From Candidatus Omnitrophota bacterium (GTDB taxonomy: Bacteria; Omnitrophota; Gorgyraeia; Gygaellales; Profunditerraquicolaceae), in NCBI GenBank assembly GCA_028718225.1, contig JAQUMI010000007.1:1-45801 (forward strand): a stretch of 45,801 nt of DNA, written 5' to 3'. A program made the position numbers and the translations under genes. The notes under the pieces were generated by a model. It was given only the letters and a program-made list of their open reading frames with translations, ran no database searches and was not told where the DNA came from. How positions within the stretch are numbered: the first letter of the stretch is position 1; the number at the start of each line of letters is the position of its first letter. Of this stretch, positions 34,036 to 43,466 are shown piece after piece.

Positions 34036-34634
34036 AACTTCCTCCTTATTTGCGCTACTTGTTTGCGTGTATTCGTCAATGAACCGCTGTTATTTATGAT
34101 AAAATCCGCGAGGCGCTCCCTGGCCTGCTGCGAAATCTGAGATTTTATTCTTTTCAGGATATCTGCCCGCTTTAAAGATGTTTTCTTAATCAGGCGGCTA
34201 AACTGCTTATCCCTATCGGTCTTTACCACAATCAGGCAGTCTAGGGTACTTTTAAGGTTCGCCTCTAACAGCAAAGGCGCATCCAGAATGATCACTCCTT
34301 TCTCTATGCTGTTAATTTTTGCTTTTATAATACGGATTACTTCCGGGTGAATAATGGCATTTAACCGCTTCAGGTATTTTTTGTTATTGAAAACAACCCC
34401 GGCAAGCCTGCGGCGGTCGATCTCCTTATTTTTTCCTAATATGCCCGGGCCAAAACTGTAAACTACTTTTTCATAAACTTTACTCCCGCGCCGCAGAAAA
34501 GCGTGCGCTATTCTGTCGGCATCAATGACTTTCGCTCCGGAAGAAGCAAAAATACCCGCCACGGTACTCTTGCCGCTGCCAAAACTACCGGTAAGCCCGA
34601 CGATAATTTTCTTATTTTTTCTTAGCCTTGGCAT
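34023..34634 (-). CDS. coaE: Dephospho-CoA kinase
   Basis: [40 protein letters not shown]. Confidence 0.95.
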
Positions 34635-36000
34635 ACAATTCCAGGTATTTTACGGCAGAGGCGTCCCAGGAAAAATTGCCCTTCAGGGCGTTCTTGACCA
34701 ACGCATCCCATTTTGTTTTGGCCTTGAACGCAGAGAGCGCCTTCTTTATCGTCTTGACCAGGTCTGCCCTAGAATAGCGGGCAAAGACAAAACCGTTCTC
34801 TGGATTCACCGTATCAGCTAAGCCTCCTGTCTTAAAGACTAACGGGATAGTGCCGTACCTTAAACTGATTAGCTGGCCCAGCCCGCAGGGCTCATACCTT
34901 GAAGGCATAAGGAATATATCGCTGCCGGCATAGATCTTGTGCGCCAGAGGGTCATCAAACTTCAAGTTCAAAGATATGACTTTAGGGTATTTAGCAGCCA
35001 TCTCCTGCAGGACTTGGTGGTATTTTAAATCCCCGGTTCCCAGAATAACCAGCTGGACATCCAGCTTGCAAATCTCGTCAATCCCTTCGGCGAGTATGTC
35101 CCAACCTTTTTGCTCGGCCAATCTTGAGACGATTCCGATTAAAGGCACGCCTTTCTTTAAGGGCAGCTTGCAAAGCGCTTGCAGGTCTTTTTTGTCTTGG
35201 GCTTTACCGGACAAGTCAGTAATTGAAAAATTCCGGGCGACGAACTTATCGTTTTGAGGATTCCAGATACCATAATCTAAACCGTTTAATATGCCAAAAA
35301 CCGAATCCTTGCGTTTATTCAATACCCCTTCCAGCCCGAAACCGAATTCTTCGGTCTGGATCTCCCTGGCGTAAGTAGGGCTGACCGTATTAATAATATC
35401 CGCAAAAAGAATGCCCCCCTTAAGGATATTTATCTTACCGTAAAATTCCAACCCCTCCATATTAAACAAACTCCGGTCAAGGCCAAGCTTGGGGAATTCC
35501 TCTCCGGGGAAAAGCCCCTGATAACCGATATTATGGATAGTCAGGGCCGTGCGGGTATTTTTATAAAAAGGGTCCCGGGAATAAACTGTCTTTAAAAAAA
35601 CCGGAATCAGGGACGACTGCCAGTCATGGCAGTGGATAATATCCGGCTTAAAACCAATTTCTTCCAATAAATCCAGAGACTTTCTGCAATAAAAGGAAAA
35701 CCGGTCCAGGTTATCCGGATAGTCGCCGTTTTTATCCCCGTACAGGCCATCGCGGTTGAAATATTCTTCGTTTTCAATAAAATAAACTTGGATATTTTTT
35801 CCGGCTAGCCCGGTTAAAACACCGCTATTTAATTTCCTAAGTTTGAACTTAGCTGTATCTACCGCCTTGTACCCCGGCATAATTATGCTTACTTCCTGGC
35901 CTTCTTTTTCTAAGGCCAACGGCAATGCTCCCGCTACATCCGCTAATCCTCCGGTCTTAGCGAAAGGGACTACCTCTGATGAGCACACCGCTATTTTCAT
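34612..36000 (-). CDS. glgA: Glycogen (starch) synthase
   Basis: SSEVVPFAKTGGLADVAGALPLAL, HCHDWQSSLIPVFLK, GILNGLDYGIWNP, MPSRYEPCGLGQL. Confidence 0.96.
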   Translation of the reverse strand: MKIAVCSSEVVPFAKTGGLADVAGALPLALEKEGQEVSIIMPGYKAVDTAKFKLRKLNSGVLTGLAGKNIQVYFIENEEYFNRDGLYGDKNGDYPDNLDRFSFYCRKSLDLLEEIGFKPDIIHCHDWQSSLIPVFLKTVYSRDPFYKNTRTALTIHNIGYQGLFPGEEFPKLGLDRSLFNMEGLEFYGKINILKGGILFADIINTVSPTYAREIQTEEFGFGLEGVLNKRKDSVFGILNGLDYGIWNPQNDKFVARNFSITDLSGKAQDKKDLQALCKLPLKKGVPLIGIVSRLAEQKGWDILAEGIDEICKLDVQLVILGTGDLKYHQVLQEMAAKYPKVISLNLKFDDPLAHKIYAGSDIFLMPSRYEPCGLGQLISLRYGTIPLVFKTGGLADTVNPENGFVFARYSRADLVKTIKKALSAFKAKTKWDALVKNALKGNFSWDASAVKYLELYAKAKKK

Positions 36001-38537
36001 TTTACCTCCTCCATCTCTAGCCAGTTATGACCTTTTTTTATATCAACCCTGACCGGTACGTTAAGCTTCAAAACATTCTCCATCCTGTCCCGCGCCAAGG
36101 CTATCAAATCCTGCAATTCATCCTTAGGCAGATCAAAGAGCAATTCATCGTGGATCTGTAAAACCATCCTGGATTTTAATTCTTTCTTCTTGATCTCTTT
36201 ATCTATGCTGATCATAGCCAGCTTAATCAAATCCGCAGCTGAACCCTGAATAGGAGTATTCACTGCCTGCCTTTCGGCAAATTGCCTTACTCCCTGATTT
36301 TTACTGTTAATCTCCGGCAGATACCGCCTCCGGCCCAATATCGTGGTAACGAAACCTTCTTTTTGCGCGAGCTTAATCTGTTTTTCAATATATTCTTTTA
36401 CACCCGAATAGCGGGCAAAATATGCGTCGATAAAACTTTGTGCCTCGTCAAACCCTACGTTTAAATCACGGGCCAGGCCGTAAGAGCTTAAGCCATAAAC
36501 AATCCCAAAGTTAACTCTTTTAGCCCTGTCGCGCATTTCAGCGCTTACTTCTTTCTCTTCTACGCCGTAAATCAGAGCCGCGGTGGCTTTGTGTATATCC
36601 ATCCCCTTCTTAAAAGCGGTAGACAAATACTCATCCCCGCTTAAATGCGCTAAGATCCTTAAATCTATCTGCGAATAATCCCCGGAAAGAAGATAATTAT
36701 CTTTGCTCCCGGCGATAATTGCCTTACGGATTTTAGCGCCTAGATCCGTCTTGATAGGTATATTCTGCAGGTTAGGATTGCTCGAACTAAGCCGTCCGGT
36801 CTCCGTCCCTGTCTGGTTAAAAGAAGTATGCAACCTGGCGCTATCCTTATCCGCCAACTGGGGCAATACATCGATATAGGTAGTTTTTAGTTTAGTCAAC
36901 TGGCGGTATTCCAGTAAAGATGCCGGAAGCTCATGCTTATCCGCCAATTTCTTAAGGACTTCTTCATCTGTTGAAGCGCCGGTCTTGGTCTTCTTGACTA
37001 CCGGAAGCTTAAGCTGTTCAAATAAGACTACCCGTAATTGTTTAGGCGAATTTATATTAAATTCTGAGCCGCTAAGCTTATAAATATCCTCCACCAGACT
37101 GGCCAACCTTTTGCCTAACTCCTGCGAAAGCGACTTGAGTAATTTTAAATCTATCTTTACTCCGCAGCCTTCCATTGCCGAAAGCACATCCACCAGGGGC
37201 ATCTCGGTATCATAAAAAAGCCCCTCCAGCCTTTTCTTCTTCAACTCTTCGCTCAGCCTGGCTTTCAGGTCCTTGATAATATTTAAAGCCTCCCGGCCCG
37301 CCGGTAATTTGCCGTAAGGAAACTTATCCAGATAATCCAAGGCCACATTTTCCAAAGCATAGCTGCCTTTAGAAGGGTTTAAAAGATACGCGGCGATCAT
37401 CGTGTCAAAAAATAATCCTTCCAGAACAAAATTCTCTTTAGCTAAAGAAGTCTTGATTTTCTTCAGGTCATGACTTATTTTATTTATTTTAGGATTAACC
37501 AGAATATCCCGGAAACCGGGATTATCCTTGGCTAAACGCAGGAATTTTCCCCCACGGCTAAAAACCAAACTGTCCGCGTTTTCACCCCACAAGAATAATT
37601 CTCCGCCTGATTCCATGAGCCCCTTTAAATCTTTTTCATCCCAGGATTCTGCGGCTGCTTCCGGAACAGGCCGGCTCTCCAAATTTAATCCTTTTAAGAA
37701 TTTATTGAATTCCAGGTGTTTGAATAACCTGGCCAGCTCTTCCTGGTTAGCCTGCCCGACTTTAAGTTCTGCCAGGTTAAAACCTATCTCCATATCCTGC
37801 GTTAACTCTACCAGCTCCTTATTTAATCTTGCCTGCTTAATATTCTCTTCTAATGACCCTCTTATCTTTTCCTTTTTTACCTTATCCAGGCTAGAGAGCA
37901 GTTTTTCTAACGAACCAAATTCCTTAACCAGTCCGACTGCGGTCTTTTCGCCTATTCCGGGTATGCCGGGTATATTATCCGCCGTATCGCCCATCAGGCT
38001 GATCACATCAGCGACCTGCTGCGGCCTTACCCCGAAACGTTCAAGGACTGCCTGCTCATCATACACTATGCCGGTATCTTTATGGGGGCTATAGACTTCA
38101 ATATCCTTATTCACCAATTGCAATATATCCTTATCCGAACTGATAATCAGCGTAGAAATGCCTTGAGCCTGGGCAGCCCTGGCTAAAGTTGCGATTATAT
38201 CATCCGCCTCAAAGCCGGCCTTCTCTAAAATTTTAATTCCATAATTGGAAACTATTTTTTTAATCAAGGGCACCTGCGAAACCAAGTCATCCGGCATAGG
38301 CGGACGCTGTATTTTATATTCCGCGAATTTCTTAGCCCTGAAGGTATCCCGGGAGACATCGAAACAAACCGCCAGGTAACCGGGCTTATTGTCTTTCAGC
38401 ACCTTGTTCAATAAATTCAGGAATCCGTATATAGCGCCGGTCGGCTGGCCAAAAGAGGTGGCTAAGCCTCTTACCGCGTAAAATGCGCGATAGCAAAAAG
38501 CTGTCGCATCTATCAGGTATAACCGTTTTTTATCCAT
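35997..38537 (-). CDS. polA: DNA polymerase I
   Basis: N-terminal 5' nuclease (FEADDIIATLA, GDTADNIPGIPGIGEKTA), degenerate 3'-5' exo region, polymerase motifs SGDYSQIDLRILAHLSGD, KRVNFGIVYGLSSYGLA, QIHDELLF. Confidence 0.97.
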   Translation of the reverse strand: MDKKRLYLIDATAFCYRAFYAVRGLATSFGQPTGAIYGFLNLLNKVLKDNKPGYLAVCFDVSRDTFRAKKFAEYKIQRPPMPDDLVSQVPLIKKIVSNYGIKILEKAGFEADDIIATLARAAQAQGISTLIISSDKDILQLVNKDIEVYSPHKDTGIVYDEQAVLERFGVRPQQVADVISLMGDTADNIPGIPGIGEKTAVGLVKEFGSLEKLLSSLDKVKKEKIRGSLEENIKQARLNKELVELTQDMEIGFNLAELKVGQANQEELARLFKHLEFNKFLKGLNLESRPVPEAAAESWDEKDLKGLMESGGELFLWGENADSLVFSRGGKFLRLAKDNPGFRDILVNPKINKISHDLKKIKTSLAKENFVLEGLFFDTMIAAYLLNPSKGSYALENVALDYLDKFPYGKLPAGREALNIIKDLKARLSEELKKKRLEGLFYDTEMPLVDVLSAMEGCGVKIDLKLLKSLSQELGKRLASLVEDIYKLSGSEFNINSPKQLRVVLFEQLKLPVVKKTKTGASTDEEVLKKLADKHELPASLLEYRQLTKLKTTYIDVLPQLADKDSARLHTSFNQTGTETGRLSSSNPNLQNIPIKTDLGAKIRKAIIAGSKDNYLLSGDYSQIDLRILAHLSGDEYLSTAFKKGMDIHKATAALIYGVEEKEVSAEMRDRAKRVNFGIVYGLSSYGLARDLNVGFDEAQSFIDAYFARYSGVKEYIEKQIKLAQKEGFVTTILGRRRYLPEINSKNQGVRQFAERQAVNTPIQGSAADLIKLAMISIDKEIKKKELKSRMVLQIHDELLFDLPKDELQDLIALARDRMENVLKLNVPVRVDIKKGHNWLEMEEVK

Positions 38538-38590
38538 TAATAAGACATTTGGAGTTCAATTTTGGTAGGAGAGCTAAAATTTGTGGTTTT

Positions 38591-39313
38591 CTATGTACCC
38601 TTCTTCTTAGAATTCAGCTTGCGAGCATCCTCCAGGGCCTTCTGCATTTCTTTAGAATAGCTTTTTTCAAAGCTCTCAAGCTTTGTATTTTGAGGTTTTT
38701 TAACGGCGGCTTGCTTACTGCTCTGACCTAAGGTGGTTTTTTCAGCGATAACGTCTTGCATTAAAGTATTGATATCTTTCTCCTGAACCGGGATAGCGCT
38801 CTTCCCGAATAAAATAAGGTTTATATCTTTCAGGCGTTTTTCGGCCTTCCACGTCCAAAGGTCATTCGGATCTCCTAATTCCACCCGCTTCTTCCAGAAA
38901 TAAGCGGCTTTTTGCAGATCGCGCTTGTCTTCATAAAGAAGGGCCAGGTTGCTATACGCACTTTCATAAGAAGGATCCATCTTTATGGCCCGAAGATAAC
39001 TTTCCTCTGCCCGTTTAAGATCTCCCTGGGATTCATAAATAACGCCTAAATCATTATGCACAACCGCATATTCGGGGTCAATCCCCGCGGCTTTCTGGTA
39101 TAACTTTAACGCGGTATCCAGATCGCCCAGATTCTGGGATTTTAAACCTTCGTTACGATAGAGCTGGGCCTGCTTCTGGAGGCTGGTCAGCTCCTCCTTT
39201 TTTTTCTTAATAACCTTATCCGCAGCCAGCAGATGCGCGGCAAATACGAACAGAAAACAATTAACTATTAAGGTTATTCTCTTTAAATTTTTTTTGAGGG
39301 TTTTGCTTGGCAT
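38591..39313 (-). CDS. TPR-repeat protein with N-terminal signal/anchor
   Basis: Hydrophobic N-terminus; tandem TPRs (AVVHNDLGVIYESQGDLKRAEESYLRAIKMDPSYESAYSNLALLYEDKRD). Confidence 0.85.
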   Translation of the reverse strand: MPSKTLKKNLKRITLIVNCFLFVFAAHLLAADKVIKKKKEELTSLQKQAQLYRNEGLKSQNLGDLDTALKLYQKAAGIDPEYAVVHNDLGVIYESQGDLKRAEESYLRAIKMDPSYESAYSNLALLYEDKRDLQKAAYFWKKRVELGDPNDLWTWKAEKRLKDINLILFGKSAIPVQEKDINTLMQDVIAEKTTLGQSSKQAAVKKPQNTKLESFEKSYSKEMQKALEDARKLNSKKKGT

Positions 39314-39360: not shown

Positions 39361-41919
39361 TTACATCAACGGCTCTAAGGAACCAACCGGATGTTTAACT
39401 TTTTCCAGGTAAGCCGCTAGCTCATCAGAGGTCGTGGCAACTGTTTCATCCGCAATCTTTTCCAGTAAATCCGGCTCGCCGATTTCTTCGCAGCGTTTCC
39501 TTAATTTATCTCCCAAAAGCTCTTTAAGCTCTTTAGGCATCCAAACCAGGCGCTTCAAGCCTCCTTCAGCCAGAATAAACTTCTTGCTTATTATATAGAG
39601 CTTGCCTACTCCCAGGAACCCCGGAGTCTGGACCCCTCCTCCGACTGAACCGGCTAAAGTAGTAAAGCTCATGCCGGAAGGAGTCAGGCCGGAAAAATCC
39701 CGGTGCACGATCATTACCCCGTTTACTTCCGGGATAATCGCCAGGATGCACTCAAAACACCCGCAGGAAGACTGCGGAGAATCCATTAAAGAATACATGC
39801 TTACCTTATCAATGCTTTTATTGGATTTCTGTTTCACGAATTCATTTACGTTTTCCCATTGCCCCAGCCTAGCATCCAGCGTATTTCCTTTGACTATAGG
39901 CTGGTTAGGGCCGGTGGGAGTAATTTCAAAAGAAGCCTTCGCATCCAACCACGAATAAGCCCCGCAGAGCCCTAAGCGTTCGGGGGTAACAATACAAACA
40001 TGATTGGGAGCAAATGACTGGCACAATAAACAGGAATAATAAATATCTACGCTTTCATCGGTCATCCCGCTTATGCGTTCATCGCGCTCGTCAAAAACTT
40101 TTTTTGCGGGAACAAGAAGCCTTTCTACGTCTTCCTGTTTTGTATAGAGGTTAATTTGAATTTTATCGACAATGGCGCTGTATTCCTGATGCAGCATCGC
40201 GTGCAGGATAACGCCGATATGCTTTAACCTAAAACCCTTAGCGAAAGCATCTTTACTGATCCTGATCCAATCCATATCGCGCTGGCCTACGTGCATTAAA
40301 CCCATCGCGTAATTAACAAAACGGTGGATCTGCCTCTCCAGGATCGGCTCAAAATCCTTCTGCATTTTACGGCCATAAACGCTGACGATAATAGCTAAAG
40401 GCAGGGATTTAACTCCCGGGGGTAAGTTATCAATATCCGGCCCGGCTATCTCTACCTTACCGTCTTCAACTTCATTTTCTTCTTTTGCGCTTAAGAATTC
40501 AAAGGCCAGGCTGGCCTTGGCGCCGAATTCCACGTGCAGCTGTTCTTTTCTGACCCGCTCTCCTTCAAAGGCAGCGGCATAAGGCACCGGTACAGCGACC
40601 TCGGCCATTTTCACCTTTATCCCGCGGGTAAGCAGGCATTGAGAAGGAAGTTTTTTATAATCCTTCTCTGTAACTAACGCCTCAAATAAAGTCGTATCAA
40701 TCTTGCCTAACTGCGGGACTTCCAGGTCGGTAATAATCGGTAAGCCAAAGGTTAGGACCCCTAAACCTGTCGCGACAATCACCTCATCGACATGCCCTAA
40801 GAGTAAAACAAACGCGGGCACGCGGTTACGGATATAATCCGCGATCCCCGTCCATTCCCCCGGTTTAAATCCCCCGTAAATTAAGGGTGCGCGCACGGCA
40901 AAGTTTACCGCATAAATCGCCGAAAGATAATCCTCGCCTAAAGGGACGATGTAATTATCCAAACCTATCTCTATTCCCTTACTCTCTAATTGTTTCTGCA
41001 GGGTATTGCCTTGAATATTACCGGCTAATAAACTGACAATACTCTTGGATTGGAAATTACGGATTAATTCCACGGCTGCGTCTTCATCTTTTGCCGGGCC
41101 CAGAATTACGGCGATACCGGCTATCCTGCCGTCAACCAGCTGCAGGCCCAGGGAGCGTAATATTTTGTCAGGGATAAAACCGATGCCGGCCTTAGGGTGT
41201 TCTTTGTTCATTACGGCTAATCCGGCCAGGATCTCTTCAGAGAGGAGCGTGGCGACGCCCTTATTTAAAATGCCCCCCAGATAGGGGATAGCCAATCCTG
41301 TTTTAGTAGCCTTGCCTTGATTTAAACCCTCGATCTCACCCATCGCTAAGGATAAATCGTTCAGGCTCTTTACTTCCAGGTTAAGCAGGGCATTAATCAA
41401 AGGAAAATAATAATTAGTTTCCGGAAACTCTATTTTTTCATCTTTTCCTTTTTCCGCTATGCGCCTATCCAGCGAAGCCCGGGTAAGATTTATTACCGCC
41501 TCGCTGCCCTTGGTCCCTAACTGGATGAGTAAATCCGCCATGTTTTCTCCTTTATTATTGGCATTACTATCTGGTATTTTCTGGTCAACAAATAAGACTA
41601 AGCATACACCGATGGCTAAACCGCTCTTGAACTTGACTGCCTCGGCCTTGCCTTCTCCGACAATTTCCTGGATCGGGCTGTTGATTACCTGGATACCGTC
41701 AGGAAGCCCGCCTTCAAACTTATCCTCCCTGACGACTTTCACCCCGACTTTATATTTTTCATGGATGGACTTGGCCAGATTAAGCGCAACTTCGCCCGGG
41801 CCGTCAATACAAACAGTATCGTTGATAAAATAATCGTCTAGTTTCTTAAAATCATCCTCGGAACTTAAAAATAAAACGCTTTTTTTCTTGGCTCCGGGTA
41901 TATGGGGTAAAGTTGGCAT
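39361..41919 (-). CDS. acsB: CO-methylating acetyl-CoA synthase (ACS beta subunit) with 126-aa N-terminal Rossmann-like extension
   Basis: A-cluster motifs YSCLLCQSFAPNHVCIVTPERLGLCGA and SPQSSCGCFECI; DWIRISKDAFAKGFRLKHIGVIL; ATG overlaps the metF stop (TAATG); internal in-frame ATG at 41541 with AAAGGAG SD. Confidence 0.96.
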   Translation of the reverse strand: MPTLPHIPGAKKKSVLFLSSEDDFKKLDDYFINDTVCIDGPGEVALNLAKSIHEKYKVGVKVVREDKFEGGLPDGIQVINSPIQEIVGEGKAEAVKFKSGLAIGVCLVLFVDQKIPDSNANNKGENMADLLIQLGTKGSEAVINLTRASLDRRIAEKGKDEKIEFPETNYYFPLINALLNLEVKSLNDLSLAMGEIEGLNQGKATKTGLAIPYLGGILNKGVATLLSEEILAGLAVMNKEHPKAGIGFIPDKILRSLGLQLVDGRIAGIAVILGPAKDEDAAVELIRNFQSKSIVSLLAGNIQGNTLQKQLESKGIEIGLDNYIVPLGEDYLSAIYAVNFAVRAPLIYGGFKPGEWTGIADYIRNRVPAFVLLLGHVDEVIVATGLGVLTFGLPIITDLEVPQLGKIDTTLFEALVTEKDYKKLPSQCLLTRGIKVKMAEVAVPVPYAAAFEGERVRKEQLHVEFGAKASLAFEFLSAKEENEVEDGKVEIAGPDIDNLPPGVKSLPLAIIVSVYGRKMQKDFEPILERQIHRFVNYAMGLMHVGQRDMDWIRISKDAFAKGFRLKHIGVILHAMLHQEYSAIVDKIQINLYTKQEDVERLLVPAKKVFDERDERISGMTDESVDIYYSCLLCQSFAPNHVCIVTPERLGLCGAYSWLDAKASFEITPTGPNQPIVKGNTLDARLGQWENVNEFVKQKSNKSIDKVSMYSLMDSPQSSCGCFECILAIIPEVNGVMIVHRDFSGLTPSGMSFTTLAGSVGGGVQTPGFLGVGKLYIISKKFILAEGGLKRLVWMPKELKELLGDKLRKRCEEIGEPDLLEKIADETVATTSDELAAYLEKVKHPVGSLEPLM

Positions 41920-42788
41920 TATAATCCAGATGCATCCAGGACCGCGGGCACTACCTTATCCCAGCCGATAGGCATAATATGGACTCCGTCGCAGGCCGGC
42001 CTTAATTTCTTAATCAGGCGCGAGGAGATCTCTACGGACTGAGCGGTTTTATCCTTAGCCTCTTCCATTTCTTTGATTAAATCGTCCGGGACCGATACTC
42101 CGGCGACATTCTTATTCATATAACGGGCCATACCGGCTGATTTTAGTAAGACGATCCCGGCCAGGATCTTGGTTTTTAAATGTTTGGTTTTATCCAGAAA
42201 GTTTTCAAATACTTTTAGGTCATAGACTGCCTGGGTCTGGAAAAATTCCGCTCCGGCAGCAATCTTTTTCTCCATTTTCATGATCTGGGGCTCTAAGGGG
42301 TCTGCCCCGGGGTTAACCACAGCGCCCATACAGAATTTCGGCGCTGCGCCAATTAATTTATTCCCCTGCATATCGCTTCCTTCCCGAAGCTTCTGGACTA
42401 CCTGCAACAGCTGCACTGAATCCAGGTCAAAAACAGGCTTAGCTTCCGGATGGTCGCCTAAAGCCGGATGGTCGCCGGTTAAAAGTAAAAGATTCTCAAT
42501 ACCTAATGCCCCGGCGGATAAAATATCCGATTGCAGGGCCAGGCGGTTCCGGTCGCGGCAGGTTAATTGATAGATCGGCTCAAAGCCCTTTTGTTTAAGC
42601 AGAAAACAGACTGCCAGAGAACCCAGGCGCATGACTGAACTCTGCAAATCCGTGACATTAATCGCATCAACCCTGGTGCGGATTAATTCCGCGTCTTCCA
42701 GGAGCTGCTTGGTGTCAATGCCCTTGGGCGGCCCGATTTCCGAGGTCACCACGAACTTGCCCGATTGTAATTTTTCTCTGAAAGTCAT
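41919..42788 (-). CDS. metF: 5,10-methylenetetrahydrofolate reductase
   Basis: SEIGPPKGIDTKQLLEDAELIRTRVDAINVTDL, QLTCRDRNRLALQSDILSA, LLLTGDHP, FFQTQAVYD. Confidence 0.93.
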   Translation of the reverse strand: MTFREKLQSGKFVVTSEIGPPKGIDTKQLLEDAELIRTRVDAINVTDLQSSVMRLGSLAVCFLLKQKGFEPIYQLTCRDRNRLALQSDILSAGALGIENLLLLTGDHPALGDHPEAKPVFDLDSVQLLQVVQKLREGSDMQGNKLIGAAPKFCMGAVVNPGADPLEPQIMKMEKKIAAGAEFFQTQAVYDLKVFENFLDKTKHLKTKILAGIVLLKSAGMARYMNKNVAGVSVPDDLIKEMEEAKDKTAQSVEISSRLIKKLRPACDGVHIMPIGWDKVVPAVLDASGL

Positions 42789-42815: not shown

Positions 42816-43466
42816 TTATGCGGCTGGCGCTGCCTCAAGGGAACCTGACCTCTCCACGAGAAAACGGTAGACGAAAACCTCTGCCATAATCGTTATCGGA
42901 AAAGCCGCGAATAAACCGACCAGCAAAGCCAAAAGGCCCAACAGAAATATACCGGTTAATAGAATACCCAGTAAAAAGAGGTTCCAGCCATTGCCTCTGG
43001 TCACGGCAAAGCTCTTCCTTAGCGCCTTTATGGGCCCCAGCTTCTTATCTACTATCAAATAACCGAAAAACTGGCACCTTACCCAGATAATAATGCCCGG
43101 GACAATCAATAACAAAAGACCGACACATACGGCTAAACCATAGAGCAGCGAAGCAAATAAATATTTTAAGAAAACTCCCCGGACTGCAAAAAGGACGCTA
43201 AGCCTGGGGCTATCCGTATTATCATATAATTTTAAACTGATCTTAATCAAACCTATCGCAATTATAGTGCTCGCGATGAAAGAAATTATACTAAAGGCAG
43301 CTGAAACCAAAGGCAACTTCTCTCCATACAAGTTGGATAATGCATTAGGGATAGCCTGCACCAGGCTGACTATTATCAGTAAAGCGCAGAAGAACCAGAA
43401 ATACTTTTTCGTCGCTTCCCAGCCAAAAACTATTGCCTTGCCCTTAGAGAATTTTTCCACTGGCAC
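42816..43466 (-). CDS. Multi-pass membrane protein of unknown function (GPDPase membrane-domain/DUF975-like by eye)
   Basis: At least five hydrophobic segments; VPGIIIWVRCQFFGYLIVDKKLGPIKALRKSFAVTRGNGWNLFLLGILL. Confidence 0.75.
   Translation of the reverse strand: MPVEKFSKGKAIVFGWEATKKYFWFFCALLIIVSLVQAIPNALSNLYGEKLPLVSAAFSIISFIASTIIAIGLIKISLKLYDNTDSPRLSVLFAVRGVFLKYLFASLLYGLAVCVGLLLLIVPGIIIWVRCQFFGYLIVDKKLGPIKALRKSFAVTRGNGWNLFLLGILLTGIFLLGLLALLVGLFAAFPITIMAEVFVYRFLVERSGSLEAAPAA

Follow-up and report, generated by a model that had tools for sequence, protein, structure and literature searches.

CO dehydrogenase (CODH) and acetyl-CoA synthase (ACS) are usually regarded as one machine. Solved bacterial AcsB proteins (1ru3, 7zkj, 1oao, 6ytt) consist of domains in the order A1-A2-A3, of which A1 (residues 2–315 in cryo-EM work) is the CODH-binding domain (PMC12289521, PMC11474084), and truncation work shows that the N-terminal domain of ACS matters for C-C cleavage (PMC12289521). 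In the methanogenic CODH/ACS (9c0s; PMC11474084), the A1 module has been replaced in evolution and a CODH domain stands in its place. An ACS without CODH has been described for Candidatus Velamenicoccus archaeovorus and other Omnitrophota, interpreted there as users of CO and formate (PMC10066038), and for Dehalococcoides, for which acetyl-CoA cleavage by the CODH-less ACS is reported (Zhuang 2014, via PMC6113397). As far as the accessible parts of these accounts go, they contain no fusion, no pseudo-oxidoreductase and no difference in A1. Finally, in CODH-CooF-FNOR clusters the FAD-dependent NAD(P) oxidoreductase FNOR (COG1251; PMC6344411), which has a fold homologous to that of the domain described below, occupies the same place before acsB.

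The window, the whole stretch of 45,801 nucleotides analysed here, is contig C7 of a 1.04-Mb metagenome-assembled genome (MAG) of Candidatus Omnitrophota (G000) that is 83% complete, and the genomes compared with it are MAGs throughout. On its minus strand an ORF of 852 codons without internal stop (41919..39361), as had been described in an earlier note on this DNA, is predicted to encode an acetyl-CoA synthase of 852 aa, and the following features were assigned:

39361..41919, minus strand: fused acsB, 852 codons plus stop
41542..41919, minus strand: N-terminal extension, residues 1–126, with a pseudo-oxidoreductase NAD-domain fold (about 1–113) and a flexible linker (about 114–126)
41917..41921, minus strand: TAATG, overlap of the metF stop with the start of the long form, ahead of which there is only a 3-nt Shine-Dalgarno (SD) match
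41547..41553, minus strand: AAAGGAG, SD of the once-separate acsB start
41539..41541, minus strand: internal ATG (Met127), where the AcsB core begins; possible second start
40594..41541, minus strand: AcsB A1 domain of the CODH-less type, core residues about 1–316
39364..40593, minus strand: AcsB A2 and A3, core residues about 317–726, the catalytic part common to CODH-bearing and CODH-less relatives
41919..42788, minus strand: metF, methylenetetrahydrofolate reductase, a neighbour kept in all cassette types

Residues 137–852 match NF040764 (NCBIfam) with 970.7 bits, the curated cut-off being 800, and the cysteines expected to bind the A-cluster are invariant in the family alignment and line up with those of solved ACS. 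The match to the solved bacterial proteins is near full length, with the same domain order, cysteines and gating helix, but the window protein has an extra N-terminal domain of 126 aa and a divergent A1, and its genome lacks a detected CODH. The N-domain chain 9fu4 scores 125 bits to the window AcsB versus 167 bits to that of a CODH-bearing relative, and for the C-part chain 3git the scores are 540 and 560 bits, respectively. Whereas the methanogenic ACS lacks A1, in the window an A1 of another type stays and CODH is gone. The Ni-CODH partner of the bifunctional CODH/ACS complex was not found in G000, and none over the family cut-off was found in the fused genomes.

As judged from comparison of the sequences, the fusion is genuine, conserved and under purifying selection, which agrees with one of the readings given in the earlier note. 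A short in-frame fusion with a domain of about 115–150 residues occurs in 32 of the Omnitrophota genomes examined, distributed over several genera of one family and G106 of another family, and this recurrence in 32 separate assemblies excludes an assembly artefact or a frameshift or indel error, which had been considered as a cause. Values of dN/dS for the extension are mostly 0.05–0.28, as in the core or a little higher. The named matches to the extension comprise 31 loci, each from a Candidatus Omnitrophota MAG, and none of those named lies outside this group. A description of the fusion did not turn up in the open-access literature searched.

Pfam and NCBIfam profiles gave no match to the extension alone. 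In a Foldseek comparison its AlphaFold2 model (pLDDT 84.5) was matched, with probability 1.0 and a TMq of up to 0.73, to the NAD domain of pyridine nucleotide-disulfide oxidoreductases, so that the structure prediction recovers the NAD(H)-binding-domain likeness proposed before as far as the predicted fold is concerned, but not the binding motif, as GxGxxG is not conserved among the 32 short-fused proteins. A GxGxx[GAS] motif is present in 14 of 15 long FNORs, in 3/35 separate forms, in 0/4 long-fused forms and in 5/32 short-fused forms. FNOR420, the oxidoreductase of CODH-bearing relatives, which have the gene order metF-CODH-CooF-FNOR420-acsB, retains the NAD motif GGGLIG and the FAD motif AGD and has a Rubredoxin_C domain, whereas the fused domain amounts to no more than an NAD domain without motifs. 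The GGGLIG-type motif is mostly gone from the forms of about 300 aa described below and from the fused forms, AGD is changed to CGS or similar in most of the separate ORFs of about 300 aa, and the FAD domain with AGD is absent from the short-fused form. With GxGxxG, the FAD lobes and the FAD-binding Asp gone, redox activity of the extension is unlikely; because the window sequence has a loose GxGxxA of its own at the dinucleotide loop (GPGEVA), its extension may nevertheless bind a nucleotide weakly.

In unfused relatives metF and acsB are separated by a Pyr_redox_2 ORF of about 290–300 aa, whose end typically extends some 16 nt into acsB. A separate oxidoreductase ORF between these genes, for which a search had been suggested, thus exists, and in these relatives acsB starts at the place matching the internal ATG, behind a homologous rather than an unrelated ORF. 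The clustered stops (TAG TAA .. TAA TAA) seen earlier in another frame are present in the window but are probably not an old terminator, since the unfused upstream ORF typically ends inside acsB. The extension aligns with the middle of the ORF of about 290–300 aa, its NAD domain, and homology traces its first 113 residues or so back to the NAD domain of a FAD/NAD-oxidoreductase homologue encoded beside metF. In four genomes (G289, G386, G171, G174) the whole ORF of about 300 aa is fused to AcsB, and separate ORF, whole-ORF fusion and domain-only fusion could possibly be intermediates. In G163 (L029) this ORF is broken into overlapping ORFs of 162 and 117 aa by an apparent frameshift.

A simple in-place truncation of FNOR420 as the origin is weakened by two sets of loci. 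In G376 (L066) a metF-adjacent pseudo-oxidoreductase of about 305 aa and a complete CODH-CooF-FNOR420-acsB set occur in one locus, and in G149 (L059), G127 (L109) and G404 (L085) metF is followed by a pseudo-oxidoreductase of about 300 aa with no adjoining acsB. In family searches of the latter three genomes acsB was not found, and the CFeSP family was not found or gave a weak match only. Because of these genomes, the ORF of about 300 aa looks like a paralogue with a role tied to metF, suggesting that its product works with MetF independently of ACS; its persistence without ACS speaks for some role near metF. The fused extensions group as a single clade (100/100) in the tree of NAD domains, yet the fused-gene rows are scattered in the AcsB trees, and the fused end has therefore probably been moved by recombination too.

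Confirmed in the sequence were both the in-frame SD (41553-41547) ahead of the internal ATG with which the AcsB core begins, the frame being open between them, and the TAATG overlap of the long start with the metF stop. A 6-nt SD match precedes 2/450 (0.4%) of the other in-frame ATGs of fused genes, so the SD in the window is not a matter of chance. Unfused acsB genes begin at the equivalent position, in almost every case behind an SD, and only part of the fused genes keep it (the junction ATG is present in 18/32, 12 of those with an SD of at least 5 nt, and missing in 14/32). The internal SD-ATG is on these grounds identified as the former acsB start. In the window lineage it may still be functional and yield a core-only isoform, whereas in fused genes without the junction ATG only the fusion is predicted to be made from that place. 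The two isoforms suggested in the earlier note are therefore possible for the window, which has kept both SD and ATG, but do not hold as a general rule.

The earlier note had missed that the ACS is of a CODH-less kind and that A1 differs with the upstream cassette. When the window AcsB is compared in 20-codon bins with that of G102, a CODH-bearing member of the same genus (g1), identity is mostly 5–60% up to core residue 320 or so and mostly 75–100% beyond, and metF is well conserved along its whole length. The break near core residue 320 is found in the other CODH-plus/CODH-minus pairs compared as well and coincides with the A1/A2 boundary. In quick LG+G4 trees of the AcsB halves, with groups named after the data had been seen, CODH-linked rows form one clade for A1 (support 100, starred) and constraining genus g1 together costs 555 lnL, whereas in the C-part tree the CODH-linked rows are scattered, constraining them together costs 234 lnL (p 2e-6), and genus g1 groups (support 94, not starred). 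A single vertical history of the whole acsB was rejected in view of this strong conflict. With 20 further loci of the class added, the A1 tree is still split by CODH status with three exceptions, namely CODH-minus G262 and G367, which group with the CODH-linked rows, and CODH-bearing G160, whose second acsB (L148) has an A1 that lies on the CODH-less side on a long branch, so that the coupling of A1 to CODH, as read from this tree, is strong but not absolute. Phylogenetic placement shows the window A1 to be of the CODH-less type, going with the upstream segment. The conflicting trees and the shared sharp breakpoint strongly indicate that A1 and the upstream genes were swapped as a cassette with CODH-CooF-FNOR-A1, the break lying at the A1/A2 boundary, and recombination with metF and the 3' part of acsB as flanks is the simplest reading. 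As the gating helix is conserved in both types, an A1 of the CODH-less kind can still be expected to function with the A-cluster. The same ACS core behind a CODH-linked or a CODH-free front module, even within a genus, constitutes a natural experiment on A1 and on how ACS works without CODH.

CODH was scored by TIGR01702 matches over the family cut-off, and gene absences rest on family searches. Such matches were found in none of the 32 short-fused, the 4 long-fused and the 33 separate-ORF genomes, but 13/14 of the order's FNOR420 genomes have one; in the remaining genome, G306, the contig starts at CooF. The association of CODH with the cassette gives a Fisher p of 3e-14, which is overstated because the genomes are related. 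The same contrast is nevertheless seen inside genus g1, where CODH is present in G102 and none was detected in G000, G173, G310, G104 and G216. Taken alone, the absence from G000 could be due to incompleteness (83%); many fused genomes are at least 90% complete, and the window lineage appears to have lost CODH. Nearly all of the genomes have CFeSP, which in G000 is accompanied by a RACo-type activase, a CbiA-type ATPase and a pterin-binding methyltransferase, so that the window genome, with ACS and CFeSP but no detected CODH, matches the CODH-less ACS pattern. Formyl-THF synthetase was not found by family search in the window's genus, save one spurious weak match, a difference from the Velamenicoccus and Dehalococcoides type, and formate could consequently not feed the methyl branch there. 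By analogy, acetyl-CoA cleavage as in Dehalococcoides would fit better than formate use. Across the order formyl-THF synthetase is patchy, being present in most CODH-bearing genomes and not found in most of genus g5.

The explanation that we favour, and consider probable, is that the window encodes a CODH-less ACS with a non-catalytic pseudo-oxidoreductase docking or scaffold domain and an exchanged A1 cassette. The NAD domain of a metF-neighbour oxidoreductase homologue has lost its cofactor signatures and been retained fused to AcsB, while A1 and the upstream genes would have been exchanged against CODH-CooF-FNOR-A1. Most likely the extension has taken over the binding function of the protein encoded next to metF, its partner being MetF or another methyl-branch protein; MetF is the leading candidate, since the parent ORF adjoins metF even in genomes in which no acsB was found. 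The extension would tether this partner to ACS via the flexible linker or cover the A1 face bared by the loss of CODH. As CODH is absent and formyl-THF synthetase was not found, this ACS would mainly cleave acetyl-CoA to supply methyl-THF or use external CO, and the internal start retained in the window lineage may in addition give rise to a core-only isoform.

The main rival to a docking domain is that the extension is simply a cap which, in the place of CODH, covers the A1 face and the mouth of the CO tunnel and retains or excludes CO, with no partner protein. The direct fusion to A1, its restriction to genomes lacking CODH matches above the cut-off and an A1 itself of the CODH-less type would suit a cap, but the full-length AcsB model, of moderate quality (pLDDT 76, pTM 0.55), predicts a low-confidence linker without evident packing, and the parent ORF is retained next to metF in genomes in which the search gave no acsB, so that we regard a mere cap as unlikely. 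One gene might also give two products, a regulatory or minor long form coupled from metF and the core from the internal SD-ATG. This division of labour, which is compatible with the docking domain, is a serious possibility that falls somewhat short of even: the window and several genera have retained the 6-nt SD and the long start of the window has the weaker SD match, but in the 14 genes that have lost the junction ATG the fusion alone suffices.

The NAD-domain fold, the oxidoreductase descent and the loose GxGxxA of the window might be taken to mean that the extension still binds NAD(P)H and passes electrons to ACS, to CFeSP activation or to MetF; this is very improbable, as the dinucleotide motif is not conserved, the fused form has no FAD domain or other cofactor site, and the best-conserved residues of the extension (83–110) lie away from the glycine loop. 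Hardly credible is a functionless, in-frame relic of a decayed upstream gene. Such decay might leave an oxidoreductase domain that is truncated and motif-less, as here, and the descent from an upstream oxidoreductase proposed in the earlier note holds, but debris was rejected because the extension is under purifying selection, is conserved in 32 genomes and has lost the internal start behind it in 14 of them.

The gene is also an example of a redox enzyme that has been stripped of its cofactor sites and survives as part of a fusion protein. More tentatively, A1 of Omnitrophota ACS may belong to an exchangeable cassette, with CODH-CooF-FNOR and a CODH-fitting A1 alternating with a catalytically dead, sometimes fused oxidoreductase and a CODH-free A1; the latter would make of the common ACS core a stand-alone enzyme, physically linked to MetF, that cleaves acetyl-CoA to provide one-carbon units. 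The two arrangements offer a way to test if an ACS without CODH works in reverse for this purpose.

Two further observations concern the surroundings of the gene. Between folD and metF, the window encodes a DUF975 membrane protein (42816-43466), in lieu of which several relatives have a hydrophobic ORF of about 109 aa at this place. On the other side, the order acsB - TPR protein - polA - glgA (window 34612-39313) recurs in many genomes of the order.
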